64,000 bases of DNA from a bacterium (GTDB lineage Bacteria; SZUA-79; Acidulodesulfobacterales; Acidulodesulfobacteraceae). Position 1 is the stretch's first letter, and each line of letters starts with the position of its first letter. This document shows positions 41,298 through 45,928 of the stretch, in pieces. The position numbers and the translations under genes are program-made. Where the stretch lies: positions 1 to 64,000 of the forward strand of contig QIJE01000001.1 of the NCBI GenBank assembly GCA_003232385.1. Direction: 5' to 3'. The notes beneath the pieces were generated by a model. It was not told the DNA's origin. It did no database searches and saw only the letters and a program-made list of their open reading frames with translations.

Positions 41298-41327
41298 TTG
41301 ACAATATCATAACGTATCCTATATAAT
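41298..41327 (+). promoter_or_regulatory. Promoter of the SAM-riboswitch operon
   Basis: Perfect -35 TTGACA (41298-41303) and perfect -10 TATAAT (41322-41327), 18-bp spacer. Transcription from about 41334 would read a leader of some 270 nt containing the riboswitch. Confidence 0.78.
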
Positions 41328-41405: not shown

Positions 41406-41505
41406 TTCTTATCGAGAGCGGTAGAGGGACGGGCCCGTTGAAACCGCAGCAACCAATGTTAAAATTGGTGCTAATTCCCGCAGGTTTATTCCTGGAAGAT
41501 AAGAA
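41406..41505 (+). promoter_or_regulatory. SAM-I (S-box) riboswitch aptamer
   Basis: P1 pairs TTCTTATC (41406-41413) with GATAAGAA (41498-41505). Inside are the S-box landmarks: GAGAGCGGTAGAGGGAC, GGCCCGTTGAAACCGC, AGCAACC with the pseudoknot partner, a GGTGCTAATTCC stretch, and a final stem before P1. One nucleotide upstream of P1 sits an extra hairpin, CACGGG-7 nt loop-CCCGTG (41386-41404). When SAM binds, P1 is stabilised and the downstream terminator forms. Without SAM, the 3' strand of P1 and AAGAAGAAAGG can instead pair with CCTCTTCTTC as an antiterminator. It controls the six-gene sulfur operon. Confidence 0.93.
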
Positions 41506-41517
41506 GAAAGGATTATT

Positions 41518-41560
41518 AAACCTCTTCTTCTATAATTCGTTAGGAAGAAGAGGTTTTTTT
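41518..41560 (+). terminator. Riboswitch expression-platform terminator
   Basis: A perfect stem: AAACCTCTTCTTC (41518-41530) pairs with GAAGAAGAGGTTT (41544-41556) around a 13-nt loop and runs into seven T. Its 5' arm is the same stretch that can pair with the sequence following P1, giving the mutually exclusive switch. It lies 42 nt before thrC. Confidence 0.92.
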
Positions 41561-41601: not shown

Positions 41602-42849
41602 ATGTTTGTTAAAGGTTTGAAATGCCGCGAATGCGGAAAAGAATATCCGGATAGCCCGCTTTATGTTTGCGACTATTGTTTCGGGCCGCTTGAGGTCAAT
41701 TACGATTACGATAAAATTAAAAAAGAAATAACCGTCGATAAAATCAGATCCAGAGAGCCTAATATGTGGCGCTATCGAGAACTTCTTCCTATAAAAGGGG
41801 AAATTACGATCGGCAAAGACGTCGGCTATACCCCGCTGGTAAAAGCCGATAACCTTGCAAAAGCCCTTGGGGTTAAAAAATTATATATTAAAAACGATTC
41901 CGTAAATTTTCCGACGTTATCCTTTAAAGATAGAGTGGTTTCCGTCGCGATAGCAAAGGCTAAGGAATTCGGCTTTAAAATAGTGGCGTGCGCCTCTACG
42001 GGAAATCTTGCAAATTCGGTTGCGGCGCTGACGGCTTCCGCAGGCTACGAAAGCTACGTATTTATTCCTTCAAACCTTGAAATAGGAAAGGTGTTGGGAA
42101 CCTTAATCTACGATACCAATTTAATCAAGATTAACGGAAGCTACGACAGGGTCAATAGGCTGTGCACCGAAATTGCGGGAAAACACGACTGGGCATTCGT
42201 CAACATAAACTTGAGACCTTACTATGCCGAAGGATCGAAATCTCTCACCTTTGAAATGATCGAACAGCTTGGGTTTAAAGTCCCCGATAATATAGTAGTC
42301 CCTATGGCAGGAGGTTCTTTGATTACGAAGGTAGGGAAGGCCATAGACGAATTTGAATATTGCGGCCTGTTAAAAGAAAGACCGAAGACGAAGATTTTCG
42401 GCGCACAGGCTAAGGGATGTAACCCGATAACCGCTGCCGTTAAGGAAAAAAGGGAATTCATTAAACCGGTCAGAACCCCGGATACTATTGCAAAATCCCT
42501 TGCAATAGGGAACCCTGCCGACGGATATTACGCATCCGACCTCATGAACAAAACAGGGGGATACGGTGAGGATGTAACGGACGAAGAAATAGTAGAAGGA
42601 ATGAAACTTTTAGCCGGCACGGAAGGAATATTCACGGAAACGGCAGGCGGGGTAACCGTAGCTGTGGCAAAAAAACTTATAGACAAAGGCTACATAAATA
42701 AAAGTGAGACTACCGTCCTTGCAATAACCGGAAATGGTTTGAAAACCTTGGAGGCTTTGACCGGAAAACTAAAAGAACCCGCAACGATAGAGCCAAATCT
42801 CGAAGAGTTTGAAAAAGTGTTAGCTAAAATCAGAGAAAAAAATAATTAA
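41602..42849 (+). CDS. thrC: Threonine synthase family protein (SAM-controlled)
   Basis: 415 residues, fold-type II PLP enzyme. An N-terminal zinc-ribbon-like part has C-x2-C and C-x2-C (CRECGKEYP, CDYCFG). The PLP lysine is in TLSFKDRVVSVAIAKA (about 114), and CASTGNLANSVAALTA (about 134-149) is the phosphate-binding loop. The sequence matches threonine synthase, which acts on O-phosphohomoserine. The oddity is regulation: it is the first gene behind a SAM-I riboswitch and leads a thiocarboxylate sulfur operon. It may therefore be a paralogue that puts sulfur on O-phosphohomoserine rather than water; that is inference. Confidence 0.88.
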   Translation: MFVKGLKCRECGKEYPDSPLYVCDYCFGPLEVNYDYDKIKKEITVDKIRSREPNMWRYRELLPIKGEITIGKDVGYTPLVKADNLAKALGVKKLYIKNDSVNFPTLSFKDRVVSVAIAKAKEFGFKIVACASTGNLANSVAALTASAGYESYVFIPSNLEIGKVLGTLIYDTNLIKINGSYDRVNRLCTEIAGKHDWAFVNINLRPYYAEGSKSLTFEMIEQLGFKVPDNIVVPMAGGSLITKVGKAIDEFEYCGLLKERPKTKIFGAQAKGCNPITAAVKEKREFIKPVRTPDTIAKSLAIGNPADGYYASDLMNKTGGYGEDVTDEEIVEGMKLLAGTEGIFTETAGGVTVAVAKKLIDKGYINKSETTVLAITGNGLKTLEALTGKLKEPATIEPNLEEFEKVLAKIREKNN

Positions 42850-42878: not shown

Positions 42879-43394
42879 ATGTCGATAAAAGTCAGAATAC
42901 CCACACCGTTAAGGTCTTTAACGGACGGAAAAGCTGAGGTCGAGACCGACGGCGTTACCATCATAGAGGTAATAGACAACTTAGAAAATAATTTTCCGGG
43001 CATCAAAGAAAGGATATGCGAACAAAATAACCGGATTAGAAGATTCGTCAACGTTTATCTTAACGATGAAGACATAAGATTTATGGACAATATAAATTCT
43101 CCCGTTAAAGATGGAAACGTTATTTCTATTATTCCCGCAATTGCCGGGGGGGCAGCCGAAAGAAAAAAATTCTATCTTAACTATCCTCAGGAAGCTATCA
43201 AAGAGCCCCTGATATATCTTGTCGGCAAGAATTATAACATCATTACGAATATCAGAAGTGCGAGTATATCTAATGATATCGGCATAATTGCAATAGAATT
43301 AGAGGGCGAATCGCAGGAGATTGAAAAAGCGGTTAAATTTTTAGAATCTAAGGGGATAACGGTAGAACCGATTGTCCTTGACGTCGTGGAATAA
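42879..43394 (+). CDS. MoaD/ThiS-like sulfur carrier fused to a NIL domain
   Basis: 171 residues. Residues 1-91 are a beta-grasp ubiquitin-like carrier ending in IIPAIAGG (G90-G91), the tail that normally ends such proteins and becomes a thiocarboxylate. Here it continues with AAERKKF and a NIL domain (about 97-171), a ferredoxin-like fold associated with methionine proteins such as MetN. To act as a carrier the fusion would have to be cut after Gly-Gly, and a JAMM protease is encoded five genes on. Start has AGGAGG. An ancestor-type comparison is CysO of Mycobacterium or HcyS of Wolinella. Confidence 0.85.
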   Translation: MSIKVRIPTPLRSLTDGKAEVETDGVTIIEVIDNLENNFPGIKERICEQNNRIRRFVNVYLNDEDIRFMDNINSPVKDGNVISIIPAIAGGAAERKKFYLNYPQEAIKEPLIYLVGKNYNIITNIRSASISNDIGIIAIELEGESQEIEKAVKFLESKGITVEPIVLDVVE

Positions 43395-43438: not shown

Positions 43439-44242
43439 TTGGAATTCACCGAAGAGCAGATTAAGAGATATGCAAGACATATAATATTGCCGGAAGTAGG
43501 CGGCAAAGGACAGGAAAGATTGTTGTCGTCTAAGGTTTTATTGATTGGAGCCGGCGGACTTGGTGCTCCCTGCGGATACTATTTGGGAGCGGCAGGAATA
43601 GGGACGCTGGGGATAGTAGACTTTGATACCGTCGATTTATCCAACCTTCAAAGGCAGATATGGCACGGAACCGCTGATGTAGGAAGGTATAAGGTGGATT
43701 CCGCAAGCGATTCTATCGCAAGAATTAACCCCGATGTCAGCGTTATTACTTATAAAGAAAAAATTGATTCTAAAAATATTAAAGATTTAATAAAGGATTA
43801 TGACGTAATAATAGATGCAACCGATAACTTCCCCACAAGATACTTAATAAATGATGCCTGTTATTTTATGAGAAAACCTCTTGTTTATGGTTCTCTATTC
43901 AGATTTGACGGACAGGCAACGGTATTTTTACCGGGAGAAGGACCTTGCTATAGATGCCTATTTCCTGCTCCTCCGCCCGTCGGTTTAGTTCCAAGTTGTC
44001 AGGAATCAGGGGTACTCGGGGTACTACCCGGAATTATAGGCGCAATTCAGGCAAACGAGGCTATAAAGATTATTCTCGGGGTCGGTAAAACGCTAAACGG
44101 AAGGCTTTTAATATATGATGCACTTGACATGAGGTTTACCGAAATGAAACTGAGAAAGGATAAAGCATGTCCGTTATGCGGCGAAAATCCAAGCGTTTTT
44201 GACTTGATAGATTACGAAAATTTTTGCGATGTTAGGAATTGA
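43439..44242 (+). CDS. MoeB/ThiF-type sulfur-carrier adenylyltransferase (E1-like)
   Basis: 267 residues. The ATP-binding loop IGAGGLGAPCGYYLGAAG (about 37-54), the Asp in VDFDTVDLSNLQRQIWH, and the R-rich arginine finger at the start (KRYARHIILPEVG) are present. Zinc cysteines are CYRC (about 178-181) and CPLC (about 243-246). The catalytic-Cys loop is VPSCQESG. There is no C-terminal rhodanese domain. It would adenylylate the C-terminal Gly of the carrier once exposed. The start is TTG with a GGAG site. Confidence 0.9.
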   Translation: MEFTEEQIKRYARHIILPEVGGKGQERLLSSKVLLIGAGGLGAPCGYYLGAAGIGTLGIVDFDTVDLSNLQRQIWHGTADVGRYKVDSASDSIARINPDVSVITYKEKIDSKNIKDLIKDYDVIIDATDNFPTRYLINDACYFMRKPLVYGSLFRFDGQATVFLPGEGPCYRCLFPAPPPVGLVPSCQESGVLGVLPGIIGAIQANEAIKIILGVGKTLNGRLLIYDALDMRFTEMKLRKDKACPLCGENPSVFDLIDYENFCDVRN

Positions 44243-44310: not shown

Positions 44311-44559
44311 ATGTCTGACTGCATCAGCAATGCCGAATTAAACATAAAGGGTGAAATTTGCCCCTTTACGTTCGTAAAATCAAAACTTGCATTAGAAAAA
44401 ATGAAAAAAGGTGAAATTCTCAGGGTTATCGTCGATTATGAACCCGCTATTCGAAACGTTCCTCGTTCGATGGAAGAACAGGGGCACAAAGTCTTGTCTA
44501 CCGGAAAAATCAATGATACCGATTATGAAATTATCGTAGAAAAAGATGGAAAAAGATAA
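44311..44559 (+). CDS. TusA/SirA-family sulfur-transfer protein
   Basis: 82 residues. The active Cys lies in ICPFTFVKSKLALEKM (about 17-32), the CPxP-like motif of TusA with Thr for the second Pro (CPFT). The later VPRSMEEQGH is typical. It probably carries a persulfide and could hand sulfur to the adenylylated carrier. It overlaps the cysM-like gene by 14 bp. Confidence 0.87.
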   Translation: MSDCISNAELNIKGEICPFTFVKSKLALEKMKKGEILRVIVDYEPAIRNVPRSMEEQGHKVLSTGKINDTDYEIIVEKDGKR

Positions 44560-45478
44560 CAGTTATTTGCCTCGTTTATTCAGCCCGCTATCCAACATCG
44601 GCAGTACCGGCGCGGTTATGTTAAATAAAGTAATTAATCTTGACACCGGTTCAAAATTATATGCAAAATTAGAGGGACTCAACCCCGGCGGCTCGGTTAA
44701 GGATAGACCGGCATTGTATATGATAAAAAATGCCGTCGAAAAGGGCCTTTTAAAGAAAGACGGCATGACTATAATTGATTCTTCTTCCGGAAATACCGGA
44801 ATTTCATATGCCATGATAGGTGCGTTTTTGGGAATTAAGGTTAAAATTTACGCCCCCGCCAACATGAGCGAAGAAAGAAAGAAAATAATACGACTTTTCG
44901 GAACCGAATTAATTCTTACACCGGCGGAAGAAAGCCATGACGGAGCAATAAAAAGGTCGATGGAGGAATATAAAAGGGGTGGGAAGGATTTATATTACAT
45001 GCCTGACCAGTACAATAACCCTCTTAATCCGCTGGCGCATTACGAAACCACGGCGATAGAGCTTATCAATCAAACCGGCGGAAATATCGACTATTTTGTA
45101 ACCGGCATCGGCACGGGCGGAACGATACTGGGCGTAGGAAAAAGACTTAAAGAATATAACGATAAAATTAAGATTATAGCTGTTGTTCCGGACAATGCAA
45201 TGCACGGCATAGAGGGCTGGAAATATAATTACTCGTTTAACTTTGAGGGTTTTGACCATAATAAAATCATAGATGATTTTATAGAGGTAGATACTGAAGG
45301 CAGTTATTCGATGCTTAAAAGGATTATCAAAGAGGAAGGGCTTTTGTGCGGATTTTCATCGGGGGCCAACGTATACGGCATATCTATGCTTGCAAATAAA
45401 TATAGAGGAAACTACACAACGATATTACCCGACACGGGCTCAAGATATCTTTCGACGAGGGTATTTACCGAGTTATAA
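44546..45478 (+). CDS. Cysteine synthase family PLP enzyme (CysM-like)
   Basis: 310 residues, fold-type II. The PLP lysine is K52 in NPGGSVKDRPALYMI. SSGNTGISYAM (about 79-89) is the substrate loop and GTGGTILGVGKRL (about 190-202) binds the phosphate of PLP. It is closest to CysM, which in Mycobacterium accepts O-phosphoserine and a CysO thiocarboxylate. The operon places it with exactly that partner set. Product could be cysteine or homocysteine. The start codon lies inside tusA. Confidence 0.88.
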   Translation: MEKDNSYLPRLFSPLSNIGSTGAVMLNKVINLDTGSKLYAKLEGLNPGGSVKDRPALYMIKNAVEKGLLKKDGMTIIDSSSGNTGISYAMIGAFLGIKVKIYAPANMSEERKKIIRLFGTELILTPAEESHDGAIKRSMEEYKRGGKDLYYMPDQYNNPLNPLAHYETTAIELINQTGGNIDYFVTGIGTGGTILGVGKRLKEYNDKIKIIAVVPDNAMHGIEGWKYNYSFNFEGFDHNKIIDDFIEVDTEGSYSMLKRIIKEEGLLCGFSSGANVYGISMLANKYRGNYTTILPDTGSRYLSTRVFTEL

Positions 45479-45499: not shown

Positions 45500-45928
45500 A
45501 TGGCTATAATAATTCCAAAAAACGAATTTGAAATAATTAAAAAACATGCCGCCAAAATTTTTCCATATGAGGCATGCGGCGGACTTTTGGGAAAAATAGA
45601 AGGGGACGATAAAATTATCGTAAAAGCTTACCCCGCCGAAAACCGCTTCGGAAAGATAACATGGGACAGTTTTGAGATTGAACCCAAAGATATGCTTGAA
45701 ATGGACAAAATTTCCAGAAAAGAAGGCCTTGAAATTTTAGGGTTTTATCATTCTCACCCCAACCATCCGGCAATACCTTCCAATTTTGACATAAACGCCT
45801 CCTGGCCTTATTACTCTTACGTTATTCTTTCGGTTAAGGGTAATGAAGATATCACCGATATTAAAAGCTATCTGATGCCGGATAAGAATTCTACGCCGGT
45901 TGCGGAAGAAGTGACTATAATCGATTAA
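45500..45928 (+). CDS. JAMM/MPN+ metalloprotease (Mec/QbsD-like)
   Basis: 142 residues. The JAMM site is complete: Glu in FPYEACGGLLG (about 25), then H-x-H-P and Asp in YHSHPNHPAIPSNFD (about 84-98), with Ser before the Asp. In Mycobacterium Mec releases cysteine from the CysO-Cys adduct. Other members remove C-terminal residues from a carrier. Here it may do both, since the carrier is fused to a NIL domain. It overlaps the convergent gene by TTAA. Confidence 0.9.
   Translation: MAIIIPKNEFEIIKKHAAKIFPYEACGGLLGKIEGDDKIIVKAYPAENRFGKITWDSFEIEPKDMLEMDKISRKEGLEILGFYHSHPNHPAIPSNFDINASWPYYSYVILSVKGNEDITDIKSYLMPDKNSTPVAEEVTIID

Follow-up and report, generated by a model that had tools for sequence, protein, structure and literature searches.

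Organization of the carrier-NIL operon

The window, by which we mean the whole stretch of 64,000 nucleotides analysed, carries an operon whose genes lie on one strand in the order thrC, carrier-NIL, E1, TusA, CysM and JAMM, with gaps of at most 68 bp and some overlap between neighbours. The carrier-NIL gene is located directly behind the thrC-like gene after a gap of 29 bp. The features of the operon and its leader are given below.

41298–41327, + strand: sigma-70-type promoter-like site, TTGACA-18-TATAAT (12/12 consensus match; pattern match only)
41406–41505, + strand: SAM-I (S box) riboswitch aptamer (Rfam RF00162, 90.9 bits, E 4.1e-21; fold z-score -4.2)
41518–41556, + strand: terminator-like hairpin behind the aptamer, 14 pairs followed by a T run (leader fold and sequence)
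41602–42849, + strand: threonine-synthase-like PLP enzyme, putative MetM-type homocysteine synthase (PALP; thrC tree clade)
42879–43394, + strand: sulfur carrier (residues 1–91) fused to a NIL domain (about residues 92–171) (ORF, Pfam, alignment and model)
43146–43151, + strand: codons of Gly90-Gly91, with JAMM cleavage predicted after Gly91 (invariance in fused proteins; low pLDDT)
43439–44242, + strand: E1-like adenylyltransferase of the MoeB/ThiF family, no rhodanese domain (Pfam ThiF, 284.6 bits)
44311–44559, + strand: TusA-family sulfurtransferase (Pfam TusA, 74.3 bits)
44546–45478, + strand: cysteine-synthase-like PLP enzyme, CysK/CysM (PALP; cysKM model 291 bits, below cut-off)
45500–45928, + strand: JAMM/Prok-JAB metalloprotease with intact E24, H84-x-H86, S94 and D97 (Pfam Prok-JAB, 74.7 bits; alignment; model)

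The carrier-NIL open reading frame starts at an ATG downstream of AGGAGG and encodes 171 amino acids. Pfam analysis of the product showed a ThiS match over residues 5–91 (52.7 bits; cut-off 22.5) that ends at Gly90-Gly91, and a NIL match over residues 100–163 (48.5 bits; cut-off 24). As 80 residues follow Gly91, the C-terminal glycine is not free in the translated protein, and the free C-terminal glycine expected of a sulfur carrier would appear solely after cleavage. A preceding sequence-only reading of this DNA had described the internal Gly-Gly and the NIL domain within the roughly 80 residues behind it, and was right on every point; the JAMM gene that it placed in the same operon was likewise recovered on the same strand by the Prok-JAB match.

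The carrier part adopts a beta-grasp carrier fold, with a TM score of 0.94 to CysO by target length (Foldseek) and 3dwg and 4n6e as its closest folds. The AlphaFold2 model of the fused protein resolved two domains with confidence (mean pLDDT 86) and, between them, a linker of residues 88–92 that had the lowest confidence of the whole model (pLDDT <50), indicating that the Gly-Gly sits in a flexible joint. No confident contact between the carrier and NIL domains was observed in the model (pTM 0.52).

Recurrence of the fusion and conservation of Gly-Gly

Within its GTDB family, the intact fused frame was found at another 28 loci, and it was also present in five other families (f14, f20, f29, f98 and f151; six families in total) of a survey that comprised 386 genomes, with family labels up to f252. 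The fused form occurs, among other named genomes, in metagenome-assembled genomes of Myxococcota (L059), Desulfuromonadales (L060) and Omnitrophota (L064). Ala-Gly-Gly was invariant in 36/36 distinct fused proteins, and the conservation of Gly-Gly across fused homologues that had earlier been put forward as a check was thus complete. The residues behind Gly-Gly were variable, the first of them usually being small (Ala in 28 proteins, Ser in 3, Thr in 3 and Val in 2). The loss of a stop codon through sequencing or assembly error was ruled out, as the fused frame recurs across many genomes. This recurrence within the family and in five others, together with the retention of Gly-Gly in every fused protein, demonstrated that the fusion is neither a chance event nor an assembly error.

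Identity of the NIL domain and its separate counterparts

A profile built from 25 NIL sequences, both fused and separate, matched the C2 domain of MetN (E 6e-10), and Foldseek analysis of the NIL part returned the MetN structures 3tuz, 3tui and 3dhx. A nearly invariant Asn of the NIL sequences (Asn124 in the window protein) aligned with MetN Asn295, which is needed for L-Met binding; since this residue belongs to the motif that names the family, the correspondence is compatible with methionine binding but is no proof of it. In fold, profile match and this Asn the domain resembles the NIL/C2 domain of the methionine importer MetN (3dhx, 3tui), whereas here it is fused to a sulfur carrier or, in relatives, forms a small stand-alone protein. 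The MoaD-related protein of Thermus thermophilus (PDB 1v8c) has a similar layout, with 168 amino acids, a carrier domain containing an internal GGG and a C-terminal domain behind it, but its C-terminal part gave no match to the NIL segment of the profile.

A separate NIL gene of about 80–115 codons, mostly located right behind the carrier gene, was found in many phyla, including Verrucomicrobia, Nitrospirae, Zetaproteobacteria, Caldimicrobium, Omnitrophota, Poribacteria, some deltaproteobacteria and others. Five genomes (G431, G289, G336, G280 and G413) have carrier and NIL in the same frame, separated by just one stop codon, and at L185 the stop of the carrier gene and the start of NIL overlap. 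The fused NIL starts at the same point as the separate NIL proteins, and the fused or separate state switches at least eight times on the thrC tree. One apparent separate-NIL case (G018) was discarded, as its separation reflected a contig end. An internal start for the NIL part was likewise rejected, as the window has no in-frame ATG, GTG or TTG near the junction.

The separate NIL genes, the stop-split frames and the repeated changes of state indicate that NIL has a role in the pathway as an individual protein. The fusion, which has arisen or been lost repeatedly, is a means of co-producing carrier and NIL. This outcome weakens the sequence-only proposal that NIL is a cap holding the carrier inactive: most relatives encode NIL apart, beside a free carrier, and a separate regulator, with the fusion as a device for co-production, is the more likely interpretation. 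In Poribacteria (L088 and L126) separate NIL genes were observed in CysM-carrier-JAMM operons without a nearby MetM, and NIL may therefore accompany the cysteine branch too.

Probable assignment to homocysteine and methionine synthesis

Phylogenetic analysis placed the window thrC, the carrier-linked thrC genes and those of Streptomyces in one clade of 51 rows (SH-aLRT 99), which includes three Streptomyces loci and leaves the canonical ThrC paralogs outside. The exceptions were the thrC genes located after NIL at L070 and L072, which group with canonical ThrC. A second thrC gene directly after NIL was observed at L070, L072, L176 and L187. The source genome encodes a canonical ThrC elsewhere that is 37 percent identical to the operon thrC. 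Homocysteine is the product of the thrC-like MetM of Streptomyces, and the neighbouring gene metO codes for a sulfur carrier, as reported in PMC12172450 with citation of Hasebe et al. 2024. The operon described here shares with the Streptomyces MetM/MetO loci a threonine-synthase-like enzyme beside a sulfur carrier, a SAM riboswitch leader and the same thrC clade. The Streptomyces locus carriers, however, end in GGC and lack a fused NIL, while the window operon has the fused form and also encodes E1, TusA, CysM and JAMM. SAM-I aptamers were also located directly upstream of carrier-linked thrC operons at L059, L061, L065, L066, L067, L071, L077 and L080 as well as at L090, L107, L120, L174, L175, L177 and L185, and these cases extend to other phyla.

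Homocysteine is also formed with a thiocarboxylated carrier in the HcyS/HcyD/MetY pathway, where a JAMM protein trims the carrier C-terminus, MetY uses O-acetylhomoserine and no NIL takes part. The window genome differs in that no full-length PF01053 (MetY/MetB-type) enzyme was found in it, the PF01053 matches being weak and partial (about 27 bits or less), and a MetY-type route as in Wolinella was ruled out for this genome. In the HcyBio (DUF39)/NIL-ferredoxin pathway (PMC5764234, PMC12068725) a NIL domain likewise serves homocysteine synthesis, but the protein described here has no ferredoxin part and HcyBio (PF01837) had no match in the source genome, a 95 percent complete draft, by which this route was ruled out.

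The SAM-I riboswitch, the MetM clade and the absence of HcyBio and PF01053 enzymes from the genome make homocysteine formation by MetM and the carrier the best reading of the operon, and we regard its assignment to homocysteine/methionine synthesis of the MetM/MetO kind as very likely. MetM with the carrier is probably the sole homocysteine route in the source genome at its 95 percent completeness. By analogy, the substrates of the MetM-like enzyme would be O-phosphohomoserine and the carrier thiocarboxylate. The link to methionine drawn from the sequence alone has been strengthened by the riboswitch, by the MetM-type synthase and by the NIL Asn that matches the L-Met-binding Asn of MetN.

Additionally, a MetM-clade thrC adjoins a sulfur carrier gene in Aquificaceae and on another Aquificota contig (L079, L081 and L084). 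Aquifex aeolicus has been listed among the organisms without any known homocysteine route (PMC5764234), and the Aquificota gene pair may fill this gap.

JAMM and the proposed release of the carrier

The JAMM residues E24, H84, H86, S94 and D97 were invariant in the alignment, and the model of the protein (pLDDT 92) had as its three closest folds DSY2949 (2kks) and Pyrococcus JAMM1 (PfJAMM1), alone and with SAMP2. The gene was present in 27/30 genomes of the family; those without it were G014, which also lacks the carrier, and the drafts G010 and G011. It was also present in 13/15 lineages with the fusion, none being found in L062 (a fragmentary MAG contig) and G364 (84 percent complete).

Genome-wide comparison of 68 lineages showed JAMM in 45/52 with tailed carriers versus 4/16 whose carriers stop right at Gly-Gly (Fisher 8e-6, and 1e-4 with a looser score cut), most of the latter carriers being from Verrucomicrobia and the comparison holding 3–4 independent pairs, for which a paired test was not significant. 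As the phylogenetically independent pairs are few, the association was downgraded as proof of processing. Verrucomicrobia (L063, L065, L066, L107 and others) have MetM operons with an exact Gly-Gly carrier end and a separate NIL, and no JAMM was found genome-wide in them; these operons represent a natural control for the fused state.

In a direct precedent, HvJAMM1 cuts a linear SAMP1-MoaE fusion exactly after Gly-Gly, as shown by mass spectrometry; its cleavage in vivo needs the Gly-Gly and restores molybdopterin synthase, and natural Ubl-MoaE fusions were predicted to be inactive unless cut (PMC4443979). As in SAMP1-MoaE and natural Ubl-MoaE, the window protein has a carrier with an internal Gly-Gly fused head to tail with a pathway partner, and the cut predicted for it is the same. 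It differs in that the partner is NIL and the pathway that of methionine, and in that the tested SAMP1-MoaE fusion was ectopically expressed. The suggestion that NIL is removable by a cut after Gly-Gly is favoured by the invariant Gly-Gly, the low-confidence linker, the intact operon JAMM and the HvJAMM1 precedent, and we consider it likely that the fused protein is cut after Gly91 by the operon JAMM.

The CysO/CysM/Mec+ system of Mycobacterium tuberculosis is alike in its carrier fold and in having a cysteine-synthase-like gene and a JAMM in the operon, but CysO ends in Gly-Gly and lacks NIL, and the window operon adds MetM and the SAM riboswitch. Iyer et al. 2006 (PMC1779556) described operon types that include carrier, E1, JAB and cysteine synthase. 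A search of the open literature, in which this paper was found, returned no description of a NIL fusion.

Proposed pathway and alternative explanations

Our preferred interpretation is that the fused protein is the precursor of two proteins acting in one pathway. Because activation of the carrier needs a free C-terminal glycine, we propose that the operon JAMM first cuts after Gly91; the products would be the mature carrier and a released NIL protein whose start is close to the native one. The E1-like enzyme would then adenylate the carrier C-terminus, sulfur, probably delivered via TusA, would turn it into a thiocarboxylate, and the MetM-like enzyme would use this thiocarboxylate to convert O-phosphohomoserine to homocysteine. 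The free NIL protein would most likely bind methionine, as the MetN C2 domain does, and damp the pathway at the protein level, in parallel to the damping of transcription by the SAM-I riboswitch; by this analogy, methionine feedback through NIL is somewhat favoured. The same carrier may serve the CysM-like enzyme in making cysteine, and a further role of the JAMM may be to free the amino-acid product. Taken as a whole, the combination of a polyprotein cut behind Gly91, chemistry of the MetM/MetO kind and feedback through NIL was given a probability of about 0.68; this value and the grades given to pathway, cleavage and NIL feedback are judgements rather than products of independent probabilities.

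Two alternatives retain the JAMM in other roles. The fused protein could be a zymogen whose NIL cap, while still attached, binds methionine or SAM and thereby blocks the JAMM cut, which would feed back on carrier supply, as would suit the fused architecture, the JAMM in the operon, the methionine-type NIL and the flexible junction. Most relatives with the same operon, however, have a separate NIL gene that is unable to cap the carrier, and with the model lacking confident interdomain contact we judged this explanation unlikely. Alternatively, the JAMM may act like Mec+ in freeing cysteine or homocysteine from the carrier while another protease frees the carrier itself. The CysM-like gene does adjoin the JAMM gene, and actinobacterial JAMM-carrier-CysM operons mostly have carriers already ending in Gly-Gly. 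This explanation, rated marginally lower still, is opposed by the MetM operons, where most carriers with an exact Gly-Gly end occur without JAMM genome-wide and tailed ones have it, although the former pattern comes mostly from one clade (mainly Verrucomicrobia).

Explanations that dispense with the protease were considered improbable. If the fusion were never cut, the carrier domain would now have a structural or regulatory role within the synthase and carry sulfur no longer, consistent with a C-terminal glycine that is not free as translated and with two other ThiS-family matches in the genome (G000:C1:56660-56890 and G000:C10:5032-5220, one of them inside a 227-aa frame). Yet every fused form retains the AGG end, for which no constraint would then exist, E1 and JAMM remain in the operon and neither of the other carrier-like proteins is encoded there. 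The least probable of the explanations weighed was slippage on an A-rich run behind the Gly-Gly codons, leading to an early stop, a short tail and a free carrier without a protease. Lys codons among the first 12 after Gly-Gly (43152–43187 in the window) are AAA in 36/45 cases versus 105/209 in the rest of these genes, runs of 6–11 A occur there in many fused genes, and the separate NIL genes show no such bias. Against this, L059, L181 and L182 have no A run, the run has a length of just 6–7 in the window and in several relatives, even within the family it is not always the same shifted frame that meets a stop, and the product would still require trimming.

Implications

Ubiquitin is made from fusion precursors in our own cells. 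The carrier-NIL fusion represents a bacterial, metabolic counterpart of such precursors that is natural, recurrent and accompanied by a candidate protease in its operon, and its separate-gene relatives serve as controls. The MetM/MetO route, which was described only recently, was found here across many phyla, and NIL, whether stand-alone or fused, is proposed as a protein-level feedback sensor for this route to homocysteine.
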